Assembly: GCF_949628265.1 (NCBI RefSeq) | Contig: NC_088788.1 | Coordinates: 25,716,335 to 25,780,334 of the forward strand | DNA: 64,000 nucleotides | Direction: 5' to 3' | Origin: Cloeon dipterum | Taxonomy: Eukaryota; Arthropoda; Insecta; Ephemeroptera; Baetidae | Shown: positions 15,246 to 62,400 of the stretch, piece after piece | How the letters are laid out: every line of letters starts with the position of its first letter | How positions within the stretch are numbered: the stretch's first letter is position 1 | Program-made: the position numbers and the translations under genes | Notes under the pieces: generated by a model | The model's database searches: none | The model's input: only the letters and a program-made list of their open reading frames with translations | What the model was told of the DNA's origin: nothing

Positions 15246-15538
15246 ATATTCGAGATGAAGGCACAAACAGCAATTCTTGCAGAACTGTTTAGATGCCGAA
15301 AAAAAAAATACTCAACGCCTGCATCTGAAATTCCATGCTGCGTGCATTTCCTGAATAATTCGTAAAGCAGAAATAGCGTTGGCCACAATAATGTGTTTAC
15401 CCGCGATGTAATTTTGATTTTAAACGTCTGTCCTTTTTTGCACTGGATTTGCCACTGAATATTCCTAAATTTTGGCCGTGATTTGTGAAATTGGATCCTT
15501 TGGTTCTATCTGAAGCCTGTGCGAAGTTTTAATTACAG

Positions 15539-17262
15539 ATTTGAACCTGTCAATGATATGGAGGATGATATGCACATTGACTTTCTTTCACCACTGGATG
15601 AGCCTCGAAGATCTAATCGCAATTGGACGACGTTCGAGACGATTGCTCTTCTCCAAATCTTGGCGAAGGAGCGTGCTGCAAATCCAATGAAAATGAAAAA
15701 AGTGGCTTTTCTGGATGACGTGTTGAGGCAATTGCATGCGTACGACTGCTTTGGCCGTGATCGCAACCAAATTAAAACCAAGATCAGCAAGCTCAAACAG
15801 CAGTACAGAGAAATGTGCGCCTCGTCAACAGACATTACTTGCAAGTATCTCAGAAGCCATAAAATTTCATGCCCATTATTTAAATTTTATTCACTTGTTT
15901 TAGATCATTTTGACAAGAGGTTTGAAATGATGAAACTTGCGTTTGGCGAAGAAATTTTACAGACTCTTGAAGAGGAACAAACGACAATAATGCTGGAAGA
16001 GGAAGGTAATAAATTAATAATTTTTATTTAACAACAACCAGCCCGTTGGCTCGCATTGCTAAGGCATTCTCGGGAGTTTCAAAGCAGTGGGAGATATTTA
16101 TAAGCATTTCGGGAATCTAATACTGGCTGCCTAATGTCAGAGAATGGCAAAATGTGGTTAGTTTCGTTACTCAAAATGCTCGATAAGCTCAACGGGCTGG
16201 GAGGCGCACCGGCGCCGACTCGCCACTTGCTGGTTTTCGCACCTTTCCAGCGGCTTTACGGACAAATATCTGGCATTACAATAAAAGACCTCGGTGCGTG
16301 GAGGCGGAAAGATGGCCACATTGGACCCAAGCTCCTCTGCGACCACTCGGGCCCCATGTTATCCGCTCGACGGTGTTATTTGGACCCTGTGAGCTTGTAG
16401 CCCGCACGGGATGTGCTGAGCAGAGAGGTTAAAAAACACCATTTCAAGAATTTTATTAAAAGATTTCATTAATTAGTCAACTTGATTATGTTTAGACTTA
16501 GTATATTACTTAATAATAATTTATTCGAAGATGAGGCGGATGATGGTAAAGATTCAAACTGGACTGCTGTGACTGACATGGAAAATGATCCACAAGATCA
16601 GTACTATGCTGCCCAACCAACAGATACCACTCACCATGACATTAAGACAGATAGCACGTGCGTATACTTTTATATTTTCCACCCTCGTCAAATCAAAAAA
16701 TTTCTCACGCAGGGAGAAACCGAGCAGCTTCCCTAATTTGGATCAGAACTTTGAGATGCATGCTGCATTTTTGAAATTGGTCAAGGAATGGTCGATGCAG
16801 ACAGCCGAGTTGACTCCTATGATCGCCTCAATGGTGAACCAGCACACCAAGTGCTTTCAGGCCAATGAAGACCTGTGCAAGCTCAAGAAAAGGAAGCTGG
16901 AACTAGAGGTCGAGGAAAAGGAGCTGACGATAAAAATACTGAGGACACAGCTTGCTGCCAAGTCGGGCCCCGTTCCTGTCGTTCCCAATTCCCTTGCTGA
17001 TGGAAAACTCGCTAACGAAGCTACTAGAAATTCTGCGCCGCGGCAAGGCGCTCATCCTACTCAAAAGCTTGTCTCAAGCTCTCCCGCGATCAGTGTTTCA
17101 AATATCAGGCAGGTGAAAAATGTATCTTTATCAGGAAACCTGCTCGGTCAAGGCGTGCCAAAGAGCAGGTTAATTTTGACTACAACCGATGGCAAGATCA
17201 TTGGTATCTATCCTTGTAACGACAAGTATCCTGCAGAGAAATTGAGAGTTATCAAAAGTTGA
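15539..17262 (+). CDS. Myb/SANT-like DNA-binding domain protein
   Basis: Coding exons are 15539-16005, 16531-16657 and 16713-17262, joined in phase; the last intron is only 55 nt. The N-terminal domain begins near N-R-N-W-T-T-F-E and has the aromatic-spaced trihelix pattern of Myb/SANT-like (MADF-type) domains, with basic residues before the third helix (FGRDRNQIKTKISKLKQQYR). The C-terminal exon carries a charged, probably coiled-coil helix (LCKLKKRKLELEVEEKEL), as in dimerising Myb/SANT factors. The protein is probably a nuclear DNA-binding factor or a domesticated Harbinger-type Myb-like protein. The start is unsure. If transcription begins just upstream, the first in-frame ATG is 15558; if the exon at 10324-10352 is used, the protein is about 390 aa. 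The first intron of this part contains a SINE. Confidence 0.75.
16036..16440 (+). mobile_element. SINE copy A (tRNA-headed, intronic)
   Basis: This segment aligns over about 350 bp with 49711-50130 in the same orientation. Both copies start AACCAGCCCGTTGGCTCGCA and share the blocks ATCTAATACTGGCT, CTCAACGGGCTGGGAGGCGC and ACCGGCGCCGACTCGC. The head GTTGGCTCGCATTGCTAAGGC resembles the D-arm/A-box of leucine or serine tRNA. Similarity fades near 16390 and an A-rich tail lies near 16429-16434. I see no clean target duplication. It sits in an intron of the Myb/SANT-like gene and is spliced out. Confidence 0.8.
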
Positions 17263-41045: not shown

Positions 41046-41051
41046 TTTATT
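41046..41051 (-). terminator. VMA21 polyadenylation signal
   Basis: TTTATT on the given strand, that is AATAAA on the coding strand, lies 30 nt after the VMA21 stop codon. Confidence 0.65.
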
Positions 41052-41080: not shown

Positions 41081-41395
41081 TCAGTCCATTTTTTCATTGA
41101 GTCTCTCTTTGCTGGCAGCATTGGCCGCGACATCTTTTTTATCCTCGCAATACGCATGGTAAGCGTAGGTGAACGCAATAATGTGGATAACGACGACAGA
41201 GGCTCCAACTGACCAGCACGTGTTCCTGAAGCCATCTATGTGGCAGTAGTAGGCCATTGTCCAGCGGGTGCCGTAGAAGGCGCCGAACGGAAGGGTGAAC
41301 ATGAGACAGCTGTAGAAGAAGAGCATGCCGAAGGTGCGCACGTTCCGCCTCGCCTGTTCGTCCCAGATGGGCCCCTCGTCCTGAGTGTCGCTCAT
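41081..41395 (-). CDS. VMA21: V-ATPase assembly membrane protein VMA21
   Basis: The single-exon ORF starts at ATG 41395-41393 (MSDTQDEGPIWDEQ) and ends at TGA 41083-41081, 104 aa compared with about 100 in animals. VMA21 is a two-pass ER protein that chaperones assembly of the V0 sector of the vacuolar proton pump. Two hydrophobic segments are visible: LFFYSCLMFTLPFGAFYG, with the Pro-Phe-Gly turn typical of the family, and ASVVVIHIIAFTYAYHAY. The C-terminus ends Lys-Met-Asp, comparable to the K-x-D end of the vertebrate protein that serves ER retrieval. The start lies 2 nt after the stop of the upstream zinc-ribbon ORF on the same exon. An upstream in-frame stop at about 41533 rules out a fusion to the whole exon. 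Confidence 0.9.
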   Translation of the reverse strand: MSDTQDEGPIWDEQARRNVRTFGMLFFYSCLMFTLPFGAFYGTRWTMAYYCHIDGFRNTCWSVGASVVVIHIIAFTYAYHAYCEDKKDVAANAASKERLNEKMD

Positions 41396-41397
41396 GT

Positions 41398-42240
41398 CTA
41401 GCGCCGCTTCAAATCCACCTTGGCTTTGGTCAACTGCACCGGCGGCCTCAGTTGCTTTTCTGGACACCCGCACTGTCCGCCGTGTACAAAATCGAACGCA
41501 CCAACTCGCCTTTTGCACGCAAAACAACTAAGTCGACCTTTCGTCCAGCCAGACTGAAAAACAGATTAGATCCATGTGTTAAAAATAAATTTCCAAGGAC
41601 GATTTTTATAAATGAATTATTGTGAAATTTCAACTTGTTTTGAGTTTAACATATTATATATTATGGAACTTATTTACACATATCAACAATATTTTTTTTG
41701 CTTTTAACTTTAAATAATTCTTAAATTAAATAATACAAATAAAAAGGAAACTTTCCATGATTTACACTAACAAAAGTTAAACTCAATATATTTAGGGAAT
41801 ATTATTGAGAAGAATATTATTTAGACCGAAAATATGCTTCAAAGGGTAAATACATATTAGGTTTTCCATTTTGTAATTTTTACCTGTCCAAAGTCCAAAC
41901 AGCAAAAAAATATACATATAATAACAAAAGCGAGAGAGAGAGAGAAAAATGAAGAGCAAAAATTTATCCATGATACCTCGTCTACCTGCTGTGTAATCCA
42001 GTCAGGCCAGAGCCCTTCCTTCAGGAACCAGACAGCGGTGTCGGTGCAGTTGTTGTTGCTGCTCTCGTCCCCTTCGCCGACGGTACTGTTCAGGCACAGA
42101 AGGCCGTGTGCGTCGACGATCAGGTCCTCGACCTGTCCGATTAGTTCCCTGCTACAGTGGCCGCAAGTCAGCCGAAAGCTGCTGTCCTTTACTCTCGAAA
42201 TCAAGTCACGAGATCTCTCACAGGAATCCTCTTGCTGCAT
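41398..42240 (-). CDS. RNF180/DUSP12-type zinc-ribbon protein, first cistron
   Basis: Two coding exons (42240-41977 and 41553-41398) joined in phase 0 give 139 aa, from ATG 42240 (MQQEDSCERSRDL) to TAG 41400-41398. The pattern CGHC (residues 26-29), PDWI near 80, GxLSCFAC (98-101), GAFDF and CGC (116-118) matches the zinc-binding module at the N-terminus of RNF180 and the C-terminus of the phosphatase DUSP12. The spacing from PDWI to the following Trp matches human RNF180, which supports the splice. There is no RING finger and no phosphatase domain, so it is a free-standing zinc ribbon, probably a protein- or ubiquitin-pathway-binding module. It shares its second exon, and presumably its mRNA, with VMA21. 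Confidence 0.8.
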
Positions 42241-56400: not shown

Positions 56401-59400
56401 CCAAACTGAAACGGATACGTATGACTGAAGTAAAAATTAAAATTTAGAGTGCGTAGGTCAAAGCAGCACGTGTGTCGATGATTTATTTGCTCAGGGCTTC
56501 CCAGGTGCGGTTTTGGTCGACAAAGGAAATTCCAAATGCAGATCACTTGAGGAGAAAAAATAATTCTAGTGGTTTTGCAACAAATTCTTAGAATGTGGTT
56601 TGAGACGAGGCAAACCGTACCACGCGCGTAGTGTGTATAGAAAAACGTATTGTGTTAATCATCGAGTGACCATCACCCATGAGGAAAACGCTACGCATTA
56701 TTAGTGTTTGTTTCGCAAGCGTGATACGGCAAAATGATGTGTGCAAAAACAACATTCGCGAGTTTTAAAATGAAATTTTTACTCTATGAAATGCATGAAA
56801 CTATTTGTAATTTTTCGCTACTTTTTTCTCGTTGAAACACTAATCCAGATTTTTCATTTTTTTCTAACAGTCCAAAGCATAATCGGAAAATTTTTACAAA
56901 ACAAAATCTCGAAGTTATGGTTTTTCTTTCAATTTTGTCCTTTCATGACAAATAAAAACATTAGCTAATAATTTTCTCATCAATCTTTTGGCTGCAAACA
57001 GGATTGGAAATTCCTTTGGTTAGTCGCACCACTAAAACTCTGGATAAAAAAACCTAAACTCATCGCGTCATCGCTGGCCAACAAGGAGCAATTTCGAGAA
57101 CCTCCAATATAAAATAATTAGCAAAAAGCGCGGACGGATGCAAAGCGCGGAGAGCTGGAGAGTGGAGGAGGCAACAAGCGAGGAGAATTGAGCGAGGTGG
57201 GTGCCCCGTGCGTCTCGAAGGCAGCCAGTTTGAAGGTCTTTTCGGAGCGACCCAAGAGCTCTTAAAGCATCGCAGATCGCAGTTGGGAGGCGACCGTGCT
57301 GCACACGACGATCACGACAACAAACAACAACCACAGGTAAGTTCAGCAAAGATCTTAAATCAATTTTACTATTGTCAGTCAGAAAAGGGAAGAGGATTTC
57401 TTTAGATTAATAACAGAGAATATCAATTAAAGGGTTTTTATATACAATAAAATCAGATTTTCATAACCCACGGCAAAATGGTCGAATTTCAGGTCTGAGG
57501 AACATATCTAAAACAATTTAAAAACTTGGTTCATTTCTAATTTTGAGAACCTGACGCTTAGAAATTCGATTTTCGTAGCATTGTATTTAATTTATTTTCT
57601 TAATGTTTCTCCAGTTGACTCGGGTTTGAATCATTAAAAAAAGAGCAAAAAATAAAAAATAAATGCTAATGCGAGCAGACATAACTGTACAGAGTGCCTT
57701 TACTTTTGCCGATCGCGTTCATGACCTTGCCGAACCTGCTTTCTCTAATTCAAAACTTGGGTTTTCGCATACCATCGCGTTGACTTAATTGTGATTAGCG
57801 TAGCGCACCATCGGCTTGCAGGCGCGGTTTTCCCTCTTAAGCAAGGTCACACGCGCACGCATTCGTGCCGTCTCTTCTCACGTCAGGAATTTAATTGAAA
57901 GTAATCTCTGTCTTCATATAATTGTTGCAAAATTAAGGCAAAAACTGACCGTTTTGATAATTAATGTATTGTTTCTATTCAAATTTAATCTAAAACACCA
58001 TAGCTAATGAGAAAATTCGCTTCGTGTAATTATTGTTTTGTTGCCAATGAGATTAAAATCAGACACTACAAAGCGAGTAGTTAAAACTTGGTTTAATTAT
58101 ATTTCAGCTAATTTAATAAAACACACCTGCATTTGAGTTCAATGACTTTTCTCAAGTACGCATTGTATATTGAGGAAATGTCACGGCATTGTTTTGTAAC
58201 CAATTAAACGTTTATTTCTGGTTTTTCTCTCGCAACGGAATCCTGAGGATATTATTTACAGTTGAAATATTTCCATTTGTTTTAAATAGCCAATTAAGAA
58301 TATTGTGAACTCGTTTCAGTAACGTAAAATGCAAGTAAACAGTTCACAAACCTGTAACCTTTATCTTTTGGAATTATTTTTTACGGTTTAAAAATTGTAT
58401 AGCCTTTACAGATCTTAAAGCTCGTCAAAAAATTATCATAGTTTTCGATCTTAGAATTTAGCTCACAAAATTATTAAAATAAATGCGATGAAATTTGCTT
58501 TCTGAAATAGTTGATGTGTGTACTTGCCAGAATTGAAATGTTTTTTGTCTGAATAAAAATTTGGTTCAGGATGCGAGGTCGACTGTGCGTTTTGCTGGTG
58601 TTTCTGGCGGTGGAAGTGGTGCTTTGCCAGCAAAAACCACCAGTCGACGGAAAGAAACTGGACGACCTGATCAAGCAAGTGTTCACGCCGGCGCCGACTG
58701 ACGCGAGGAACAATGACCAGTTCAGAGCCACCACGGTGGTAGGCCAGCAGCCTCTGTCCTGCACCTGCGTGCCCTACTACCTCTGCCAAAATGGCACCAT
58801 CAAGACTGACGGCGAAGGAGTCATTGACATCAGGTATGGATATCATGAAACTTTGTTTATTTATATTTCGATGGGAAAAATGAAGACAGTGAACCACAGA
58901 GTTCCGACTTCCTCCCTCGGTCTTCTCTTAGCCACATCCGACACAATTTGATTTTTATTTATGTCAGGGAATCTGGTTGGTGGTTTCAGTGGCTTTGTTG
59001 CAATTTTTGAAAACCACAACATCTGATGTTAAGGCTAAAAAAAAGCTTGAATTTGTCTGCATTTTCTTAGCTTCGGGGATAATTTTATGTTGGAGATTTG
59101 TGGTACTTATATTTCAAACAGTCAATCAAAAGCAAATCCCAGTCAGCTGAAACCAGTTATTTGTTTTCAGCAAATTAGTTGCCAATACCAATTATTAGGA
59201 CACTATGAGCGAAGAAACAATTTAACAGTTTTTTTAATGTTATAAACTGTCTTGAATGACATGAATATATTGCTGTTTATTGAAATTATGTCTTGCCTAA
59301 AAATCCCCTCAAAGGACGTGCACCCTAAATTTAACCAATTTTCAGGATAAAGGAGCCGACCTGCGAGAGCTACCTGGACGTGTGCTGTCAGGCGGAGCCA

Positions 59401-62400
59401 CTCGATACGCCGATTCCACCACCACCGCAGCCGGCGCGCGTGGGCTGCGGCCGACGCAACCCTGACGGCGTCGGCTTCCGCATCACCGGAGACCTGGACG
59501 GCGAGAGCCAGTTCGGCGAGTTCCCTTGGATGGTGGCCGTGCTAAAGGACGAGTTTGTCAAGCAGAACGAGCCACCTGTCAAACTGTACCAGTGCGGGGG
59601 CGCCCTCATCCACCCCCAGGTCGTCATGACCGCCGCACATTGCGTTGCTGGGTAAGCCATGCGTACTAGAAACCCAAAAATCGGATTGGAAAACTGATTT
59701 AATGAGTAAAAGTAAAAAACTATAATGTAATGTTTGTTTTACAATAATTTTTTGTTCAAATTTCAATTTAAATTTATATTTTTGTCCCGTTATAGTGGTT
59801 CGATTTAAGTATTTTTTTCTTTAAAATCTCCCCTGCCCCTAATTTAGAAATTACTTGCTCGCAAAAAATTAAACCTATTCTGCATTTATTAACCGTTTTG
59901 TAATGATTCCACAGAAAGGATGTTGCAAGCCTGAAAATCAGGGCTGGTGAGTGGGACACGCAGACGAAGAACGAGTTGTTCCCGCACCAGGACCGCAACG
60001 TGATCGATTTGCTGATCCACCCTGAATACTACGCGGGTGCCCTCTACAACGACGTCGCCCTGCTCAAGCTGGACGCGCCTGTCGACCAGGCGGACAACGT
60101 GGACGTCGTCTGTCTGCCTGAACAAGGACAGATCTTCGACCTCAAACGCTGCTTTGCCAGCGGATGGGGAAAGAACGTCTTTGGTAGGCGGTCAATGTTT
60201 CGATATTTTAAATCCAAGATAATTATGGGCGGAAGTAAAAATAATTTGTTTCGTTATTTCTATAATTGCGTGTATCGTTTGATAATGCTGAGTAACATTT
60301 TTTGCCTTATTCCACAAATTTCATAAACAGGATTTGTGTCCCTATTCAATTTTATCCCTTTTTCACATCAAGTGTCAATTTGAGTTAGTTAATAAATTAG
60401 CCTCGATTTTATGTATTCAGGAAAAGAAGGACAGTACCAGGTGATCCTGAAGAAGGTGGAGCTGCCGGTGGTGCCGAGGCAGCAGTGTCTGCAAGCCCTG
60501 CGCCAGACGAGGCTTGGACAACACTTTCGGCTGCATAATAGCTTCTTGTGCGCCGGCGGAGAGCCAGGAAAAGACACTTGCAAGGTTAGAAAAGCACGTA
60601 AACCGTCGAACGTGTGTCGATAAAATCGATCCACAAGTACAGATGATTGACACAAATTTGCGGGCTCGTTTCGAAAAACGCAGAGAAAAATCTTGGACGG
60701 CGACCAACTTTCGGTGACAGGCATTATTTTCAGCACACCTGCCACTATTCACTGCATGAGATTGCAAAAAGGTCAAAGTGTATATTGATTGGCGTTTACC
60801 GATCGAGCAGAACACTCAAATGCATGTATTGACAATGAGTTCCAACCTGTTCAAATATTTTATCATTAATTGAGTCTCAACTTTCATCTAACTTTGCCTT
60901 CGGCATTTAGTTCCATTAGGAAGTGTATGTTTCATAAAAATAAAAATAAAACATGACAAATTTAACAGTTTGATGTTGTGGATAATATAGAGAAGAAAAA
61001 TTTCAATCAATATTTGGAACTTTCCGAGTATGTTTCTTTATCTCGATCTTTCAAAGTAAAAAATATATTCAAATTAAATGTGAATCAGAATTGAGTTACA
61101 ATTAAATGAGTTTATCCAGACTGAACAATATTTTCCAAGAGTAAAATATTGACAGTTTTTAATTAATTCATTGTTCCTGTTTTTAAAATTTGTTTCCACG
61201 TTATTAGGCGATTGAATCGTTTTAAGCCTATTTCAGGATGTCGTCATTTGAAATTATTTGCGAACTACGTAGTTCAGACTGCAACGAACAACAGATTCTC
61301 AAAGAAAATACAAGAGGATGTCAAAAATACTTTAATTAAAAATATGTAGTTTATCATGCACAAGTGACGTGAAATTTGGAAAACAAGTTCATTTTTTTAA
61401 TAACAAGTAAAACTGGTAACATGCGCTTGTTTCAAAGTCTCTTCAAAATCCAAAAGGGCCCAATTATTTACTGGAAAAGATAATTTCATCTCATCATTTT
61501 TGGCAATCATAATTTAAATCTATAAAATATTCAGAAATTTAAAATTGAATTATCAACGGCCATATAAATGTCATGTTCTATTTAAAATTTCAGGGCGATG
61601 GTGGCAGTCCTCTAGTGTGTCCGTTGCCAAACCGTCCCGGACACTACGCGCAAGCCGGAATTGTTGCCTGGGGTATTGGGTGCGGCGAGAACGGAACCCC
61701 CGGCGTGTACGCGAATGTGGCCGTCTTCCGGCAATGGATCGACCAGCAGATGCGAAACATGAACCTCGACCCGGGCGTTTACCACTTCTAATGAGACAAA
61801 AACTGCATTCATACGCGCGCGTGATATCATTATCATTTATATTGTGTAACCTTAATAAAACTGGATTTTTATTACGCTCATCGGCTTTTCATATGTTGGG
61901 CGCTCAAACAAAACAAAAAACGAAAAGTGATTTTTCGCGATGGCCATGCAAGCGCTACATTAGGCGCGTGCACCGTGCATTATTTGCCGTGAAATAGAGA
62001 GGGGCATGCGATCTGGTACTTACGTCAAAGGGCACTTGTCTGGCGAGCGCGTAGACCAGGGTGACGGTGAGCAGGCCGCTCAGGGCCAGCAGCAACACCC
62101 CCAGGGCCAGCGCCCACAGCTTGTTCCATCGGCATCCTTGAAGCTTCTTTAAAGCACTCCTTCCTGAGAACATTGAACATAAAATGATTATGCAATTATG
62201 TCAACGGATTTTATAAATGTTAGTTTGTTACCCATCTTTTTTAACAAAAATAATAGCCACAAAATGATAACGTAAAATTAAACGTATTTTAATTAAAATT
62301 ATGCTGTAGAACTGACTTATTTATGCTAGACAACCTCTCGTTTTACTTATTGTTAGTTGTAAAATTTAGATACTTTTTAAAGCTGATGCTCGCAAATATC

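Follow-up and report, generated by a model that had tools for sequence, protein, structure and literature searches.

A putative dicistronic gene in Cloeon dipterum: a free-standing zinc domain followed by a VMA21-family protein

One spliced mRNA probably encodes two unrelated proteins on the minus strand of the window, the whole 64,000-nucleotide stretch of Cloeon dipterum DNA that was analysed: a zinc domain protein comes first and a VMA21-family protein second, the latter being translated by leaky scanning. The zinc domain ORF (ORF1) is divided over two exons and ends with TAG, which is followed by the dinucleotide AC and the ATG of the 104-aa VMA21-family ORF (ORF2). Both ORFs are intact and do not overlap, the splice sites are usable, and the spliced message has no other ATG between the two starts. 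A poly(A) signal is present only after ORF2; between the ORFs there is neither such a signal nor a spacer of promoter size. From this layout, we infer a single mRNA carrying both ORFs.

The first coding exon of ORF1 (41977..42240, minus strand) opens with the ATG at 42240-42238 and encodes part of a zinc domain of the RNF180/YVH1 type. Two donor sites, both in phase 0, can end it: 41977 (GAG|GTATCA) and 41986 (CAG|GTAGAC). Both match the consensus weakly, 41986 slightly better when a simple consensus is used. The 41977 donor is favored, as the comparison with a provisional RNF180 sequence is free of gaps at the exon junction if the residues VDE are kept. The product has 139 aa with this donor and 136 aa in the alternative form. 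The intron (41554..41976, minus strand; 423 nt with the 41977 donor) has GT...AG ends and a GC content of 24%. Its acceptor, TTTTTCAG|TCTGG, places the start of exon 2 at 41553 and is preceded by 12 pyrimidines in 18 positions, the joint-highest value among the 19 AGs listed for the last 330 nt before ORF2; the other AG with this value, at 41719, would shift the ORF1 frame.

Exon 2 (41398..41553, minus strand) contains the second zinc module, CxxC...CxC. The layout given in the preliminary description is borne out, with the stop TAG at 41400-41398, the spacer AC at 41396..41397 and the VMA21 start codon from 41395. The closure of the VMA21 frame upstream is confirmed as well: a stop lies at 41530-41528, and this frame differs from that of ORF1. 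ORF2 (41081..41395, minus strand) extends from the ATG at 41395-41393 to the stop TGA at 41083-41081. A polyadenylation signal AATAAA at 41046..41051 (minus strand) lies 3' of it and is the only one on that strand between 42300 and 40900, where one ATTAAA was also found, at 41014-41009.

Both ORFs look like coding DNA. Their GC3 values are 0.66 (ORF1) and 0.72 (ORF2), against 0.69 in sampled coding segments of the same genome. ORF2 matches the Pfam family VMA21 (PF09446) with 51.9 bits, above the cut-off of 29.5 (E = 8e-14), and a single-sequence AlphaFold model predicts two long helices, albeit with low confidence (pLDDT 65.9). VMA21 is a chaperone of V-ATPase assembly; ORF2 belongs to this family by sequence, and its role in assembly is putative. 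Relatives of ORF2 were searched among viral contigs and bacterial and archaeal genomes and none was found, which agrees with an origin in an insect.

The first cistron of the message lacks ATG triplets after its own start. Counted from the start of ORF1, the spliced message has an ATG at offset 0 and the next one at 422, which is the VMA21 start (offsets 0 and 413 with the alternative donor 41986). The 420 nt of spliced ORF1 thus hold no internal ATG in any frame, and the 315 nt of the VMA21 ORF hold 10, its start included. Directly upstream of the ORF1 start, 172 nt of genomic DNA are also free of ATG, the nearest being at -175. The absence was noticed post hoc, after inspection of the sequence. 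The null consisted of coding segments of the same genome. From 48 loci (the best 30 of 152 kinase matches and all 18 DSPc phosphatase matches), 30 segments totalling 9,780 nt were kept, and 18 were dropped because their matched part is interrupted by a stop. The segments retained contain 147 ATGs, or 6.27 per 417 nt. Met makes up 3.2% of the codons in these kinase and phosphatase exons (104 in-frame ATGs over the 9,780 nt), a share that may be above average. Windows of 417 nt that lack ATG are rare in this material (P = 0.0009 and 0.0008 in concatenated coding sequence), and none of the 384 windows taken within single segments was free of ATG.

The signal can be divided into two parts. With the residues of ORF1 fixed, finding no ATG out of frame is only slightly unexpected (codon permutation gives P = 0.071, and the codon usage of the genome gives 0.059). 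Much of it is the missing internal methionine: if Met rates from 3.2% down to 2.0% are assumed, the lack of any Met in 138 residues has a P of 0.01-0.06. If both effects are independent, their combination amounts to roughly 0.07-0.44%. A first cistron devoid of in-frame AUGs is reportedly a determinant in two Drosophila dicistronic transcripts, according to the title of Wall et al. 2005, and ORF1 is like them in this respect.

The proposed mechanism would make use of this property. Some of the scanning 40S subunits would initiate at the first AUG (AGTAATG) and give the zinc protein. The remaining ones would pass this codon, encounter no further AUG over the next 419 nt and begin translation at the VMA21 AUG (AGACATG). 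The first start is below the best insect context, but the two contexts do not discriminate strongly between the ORFs, since both have a G at -3.

The same genome offered two controls, MOCS2A/MOCS2B and sloth1/sloth2, both known to be dicistronic in Drosophila. Both have the same layout here, each with a gap of 1 nt, as read from the DNA alone. For MOCS2, a MoaE match was found on contig C3, and the exon before it matches ThiS (E = 5.5e-12), as expected for MOCS2A; the pair occupies positions 1145-1400 and 1477 onward of locus L068. After splicing, stop and start are arranged as TAA C ATG, and no ATG occurs in the part of MOCS2A that was read, a 258-nt stretch that excludes the first exon. For the second pair, a match to UPF0640, the family of SMIM4, lies on contig C5 (positions 1492-1955 of locus L069). 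It is followed by TAA A ATG and by a 57-aa ORF matching DUF4516 (E = 3.3e-16), the family of the human relative of sloth2. The sloth1 ORF has one internal in-frame ATG in this genome. With its gap of 2 nt, the zinc ORF/VMA21 pair fits the established pattern.

Support for the single dicistronic mRNA suggested in the preliminary description comes from the layout, from the shortage of space in which one transcript could end and another promoter could lie between the ORFs, from the ATG-free ORF1 and from the control pairs; the presence of both ORFs on one molecule is predicted from the arrangement of the DNA. Two-cistron mRNAs had also been described there as rare in animals outside trans-splicing lineages. 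For insects this does not hold: 159 dicistronic pairs are annotated in FlyBase release 6.04, and 2.5% of the protein-coding gene models are reported to include a polycistronic transcript (PMC4528330). In Drosophila, both MOCS2 subunits are reported to be encoded by one bicistronic transcript, CG10238 (PMC2276209). The fly ORFs sloth1 and sloth2 are separated by 5 nt, and reporter experiments support leaky scanning: ORF2 expression rises when sloth1 translation is impaired and falls when sloth1 is given a better start context (PMC9681215). Reporters likewise support leaky scanning, as for sloth1/2, in bicistronic mRNAs of green algae (PMC11892635).

The zinc ORF/VMA21 pair resembles sloth1/sloth2 of Drosophila in having two ORFs on one predicted spliced mRNA, with only a few bases between the stop of the first and the start of the second. 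Like MOCS2A/MOCS2B of the present genome, it has a stop and an ATG with next to nothing between them. It differs from both in the relation of its products. MOCS2 encodes the small and the large subunit of one enzyme, molybdopterin synthase, whereas the two proteins described here are mutually unrelated, unlike those of the Drosophila dicistrons that use leaky scanning, and their translation is predicted from the sequence. We know of no common pathway for the zinc protein and VMA21.

Termination-reinitiation, which the preliminary description had suggested, is less likely than leaky scanning. It would act on the same dicistronic mRNA, with ORF2 reached by ribosomes that have just terminated 2 bases upstream. 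The short gap does place a terminating ribosome at the next AUG. Nevertheless, reinitiation is generally inefficient after long ORFs, and ORF1 measures 420 nt. The motif TGGGA, the reinitiation motif of caliciviruses, was looked for in ORF1 and is absent. The absence of internal ATGs plays no role in reinitiation and would be left unexplained, whereas scanning past ORF1 needs it; leaky scanning is favored for this reason. A variant of the same explanation places an IRES inside ORF1. According to the FlyBase authors, most fly dicistronic pairs do not satisfy the requirements of ribosomal scanning, and IRESs may be common among them (PMC4528330). Taken together, reinitiation and its IRES variant appear unlikely, and we infer that leaky scanning would feed ORF2.

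ORF2 might also be translated mainly from a shorter mRNA of its own, whose promoter would lie within the AT-rich intron or exon 2, so that the shared exon would reflect overlapping transcription units. A transcript starting in exon 2 would present the VMA21 ATG first. Monocistronic transcripts also occur at many dicistronic loci of Drosophila, and at only 45 of the 159 are both products apparently made from dicistronic transcripts alone (PMC4528330). The distribution of the missing ATGs speaks against such an origin: exon 1 is also ATG-free after the start (P = 0.013 for this exon alone, 0.079 for exon 2 alone), a property that a separate VMA21 mRNA would not need. This alternative is considered improbable, and the dicistronic mRNA read by leaky scanning is retained as the preferred explanation.

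The 136-aa form of ORF1 gave nothing above the cut-off in a Pfam search. Searched against the PDB, the 139-aa form reached the zinc domain of yeast YVH1 at an E value of only 0.07. A BLASTP comparison with a provisional sequence of human RNF180 gave E = 1e-12 with 27 of 89 residues identical. A profile built from these two sequences (ORF1 and the provisional RNF180) then matched residues 212-342 of yeast YVH1, i.e., the whole zinc domain, with E = 3.3e-9; the runner-up had an E value of 0.099. The two-module Cys pattern of the RNF180/YVH1-type domain spans the entire domain of ORF1. The predicted structure of exon 2 alone was weak (pLDDT 67).

ORF1 shares with the N-terminal domain of the provisional RNF180 sequence both zinc modules and the stretch VW...P.WI...WT.G.L. 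RNF180 continues with a RING and a C-terminal membrane anchor; ORF1 ends after the zinc domain and has neither. The C-terminal zinc domain of YVH1/DUSP12 is matched by ORF1 over its whole length, but the dual-specificity phosphatase domain of these proteins has no Pfam counterpart in ORF1. ORF1 is thus best read as a putative free-standing double zinc domain of the RNF180/YVH1 type, without RING or phosphatase. No second copy of the zinc ORF was found in the genome at E <= 1, the two matches being the exons of ORF1 itself. A regular expression for DUSP12-like zinc ribbons found none near the DSPc loci (L048-L065), which does not imply that DUSP12 is absent.

It is very improbable that ORF1 is untranslated, either as a relic or as a non-coding 5' region that would make the locus an ordinary VMA21 gene with an extended leader: the lack of a Pfam match above the cut-off would agree with this, but the zinc domain is intact across two exons, GC3 is that of coding DNA, and the profile match covers the whole YVH1 domain, the profile including the provisional RNF180 sequence.

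Two other arrangements were rejected. In a trans-spliced operon, a poly(A) site upstream and a trans-splice acceptor downstream would be required, and the gap of 2 nt leaves no room for them outside ORF1; the AGs inside exon 2 are preceded by at most 9 pyrimidines in 18 positions. A fusion protein made through another acceptor is incompatible with the VMA21 frame, which opens only at 41527, past the acceptor that is used.

A second VMA21 match exists in this genome, on contig C2 (54.9 bits). It corresponds to a short two-exon gene, read by eye at positions 1407-1728 of locus L001 (C2 24218588-24218909), with the start context CAAAATG. The two VMA21 copies are 31% identical, and both share a C-terminal K-x-D with a provisional sequence of human VMA21. 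The preliminary description had further suggested that the pairing may couple the zinc protein to V-ATPase assembly. Because the genome has this additional VMA21 gene on a different contig, such a coupling is unproven, and any biological link between the two proteins is speculative. In its strongest form, the idea would be a stable insect gene in which the choice of start codon on one mRNA sets the ratio of the zinc protein to a specialized second VMA21, thereby tying their doses together for a joint task in V-ATPase or ER membrane protein quality control. We regard this as doubtful.

CG5969 is the fly gene number of VMA21. Neither VMA21 nor CG5969 is named in the main text of the paper cited above for CG10238 (PMC2276209). 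A search for VMA21 together with dicistronic or polycistronic in 5.39 million papers, a collection without subscription journals, supplementary tables and genome annotations, returned no report, and neither did a literature search for RNF180 with insect and zinc-binding domain. The particular pair is apparently unreported, whereas the dicistronic arrangement itself has precedents among the genes of insects. The locus adds a testable pair to the dicistronic genes of insects and gives an example of a free-standing RNF180/YVH1-type zinc domain. Conservation of the pair across insects would suggest a functional link between the zinc domain and a VMA21 paralogue; if it is not conserved, the locus is one more compact dicistron.

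Two other regions of the window, both on the plus strand, were noted. Two ORFs lie at 15489-17259, and the first of them weakly matches a Myb/SANT-like DNA-binding domain (26.3 bits, just under the Pfam cut-off of 27). At 58553-60323 a stretch encoding a CLIP domain of the PPAF-2 type, a family characteristic of insects, is found together with trypsin-domain stretches, probably as exons of one serine protease gene.
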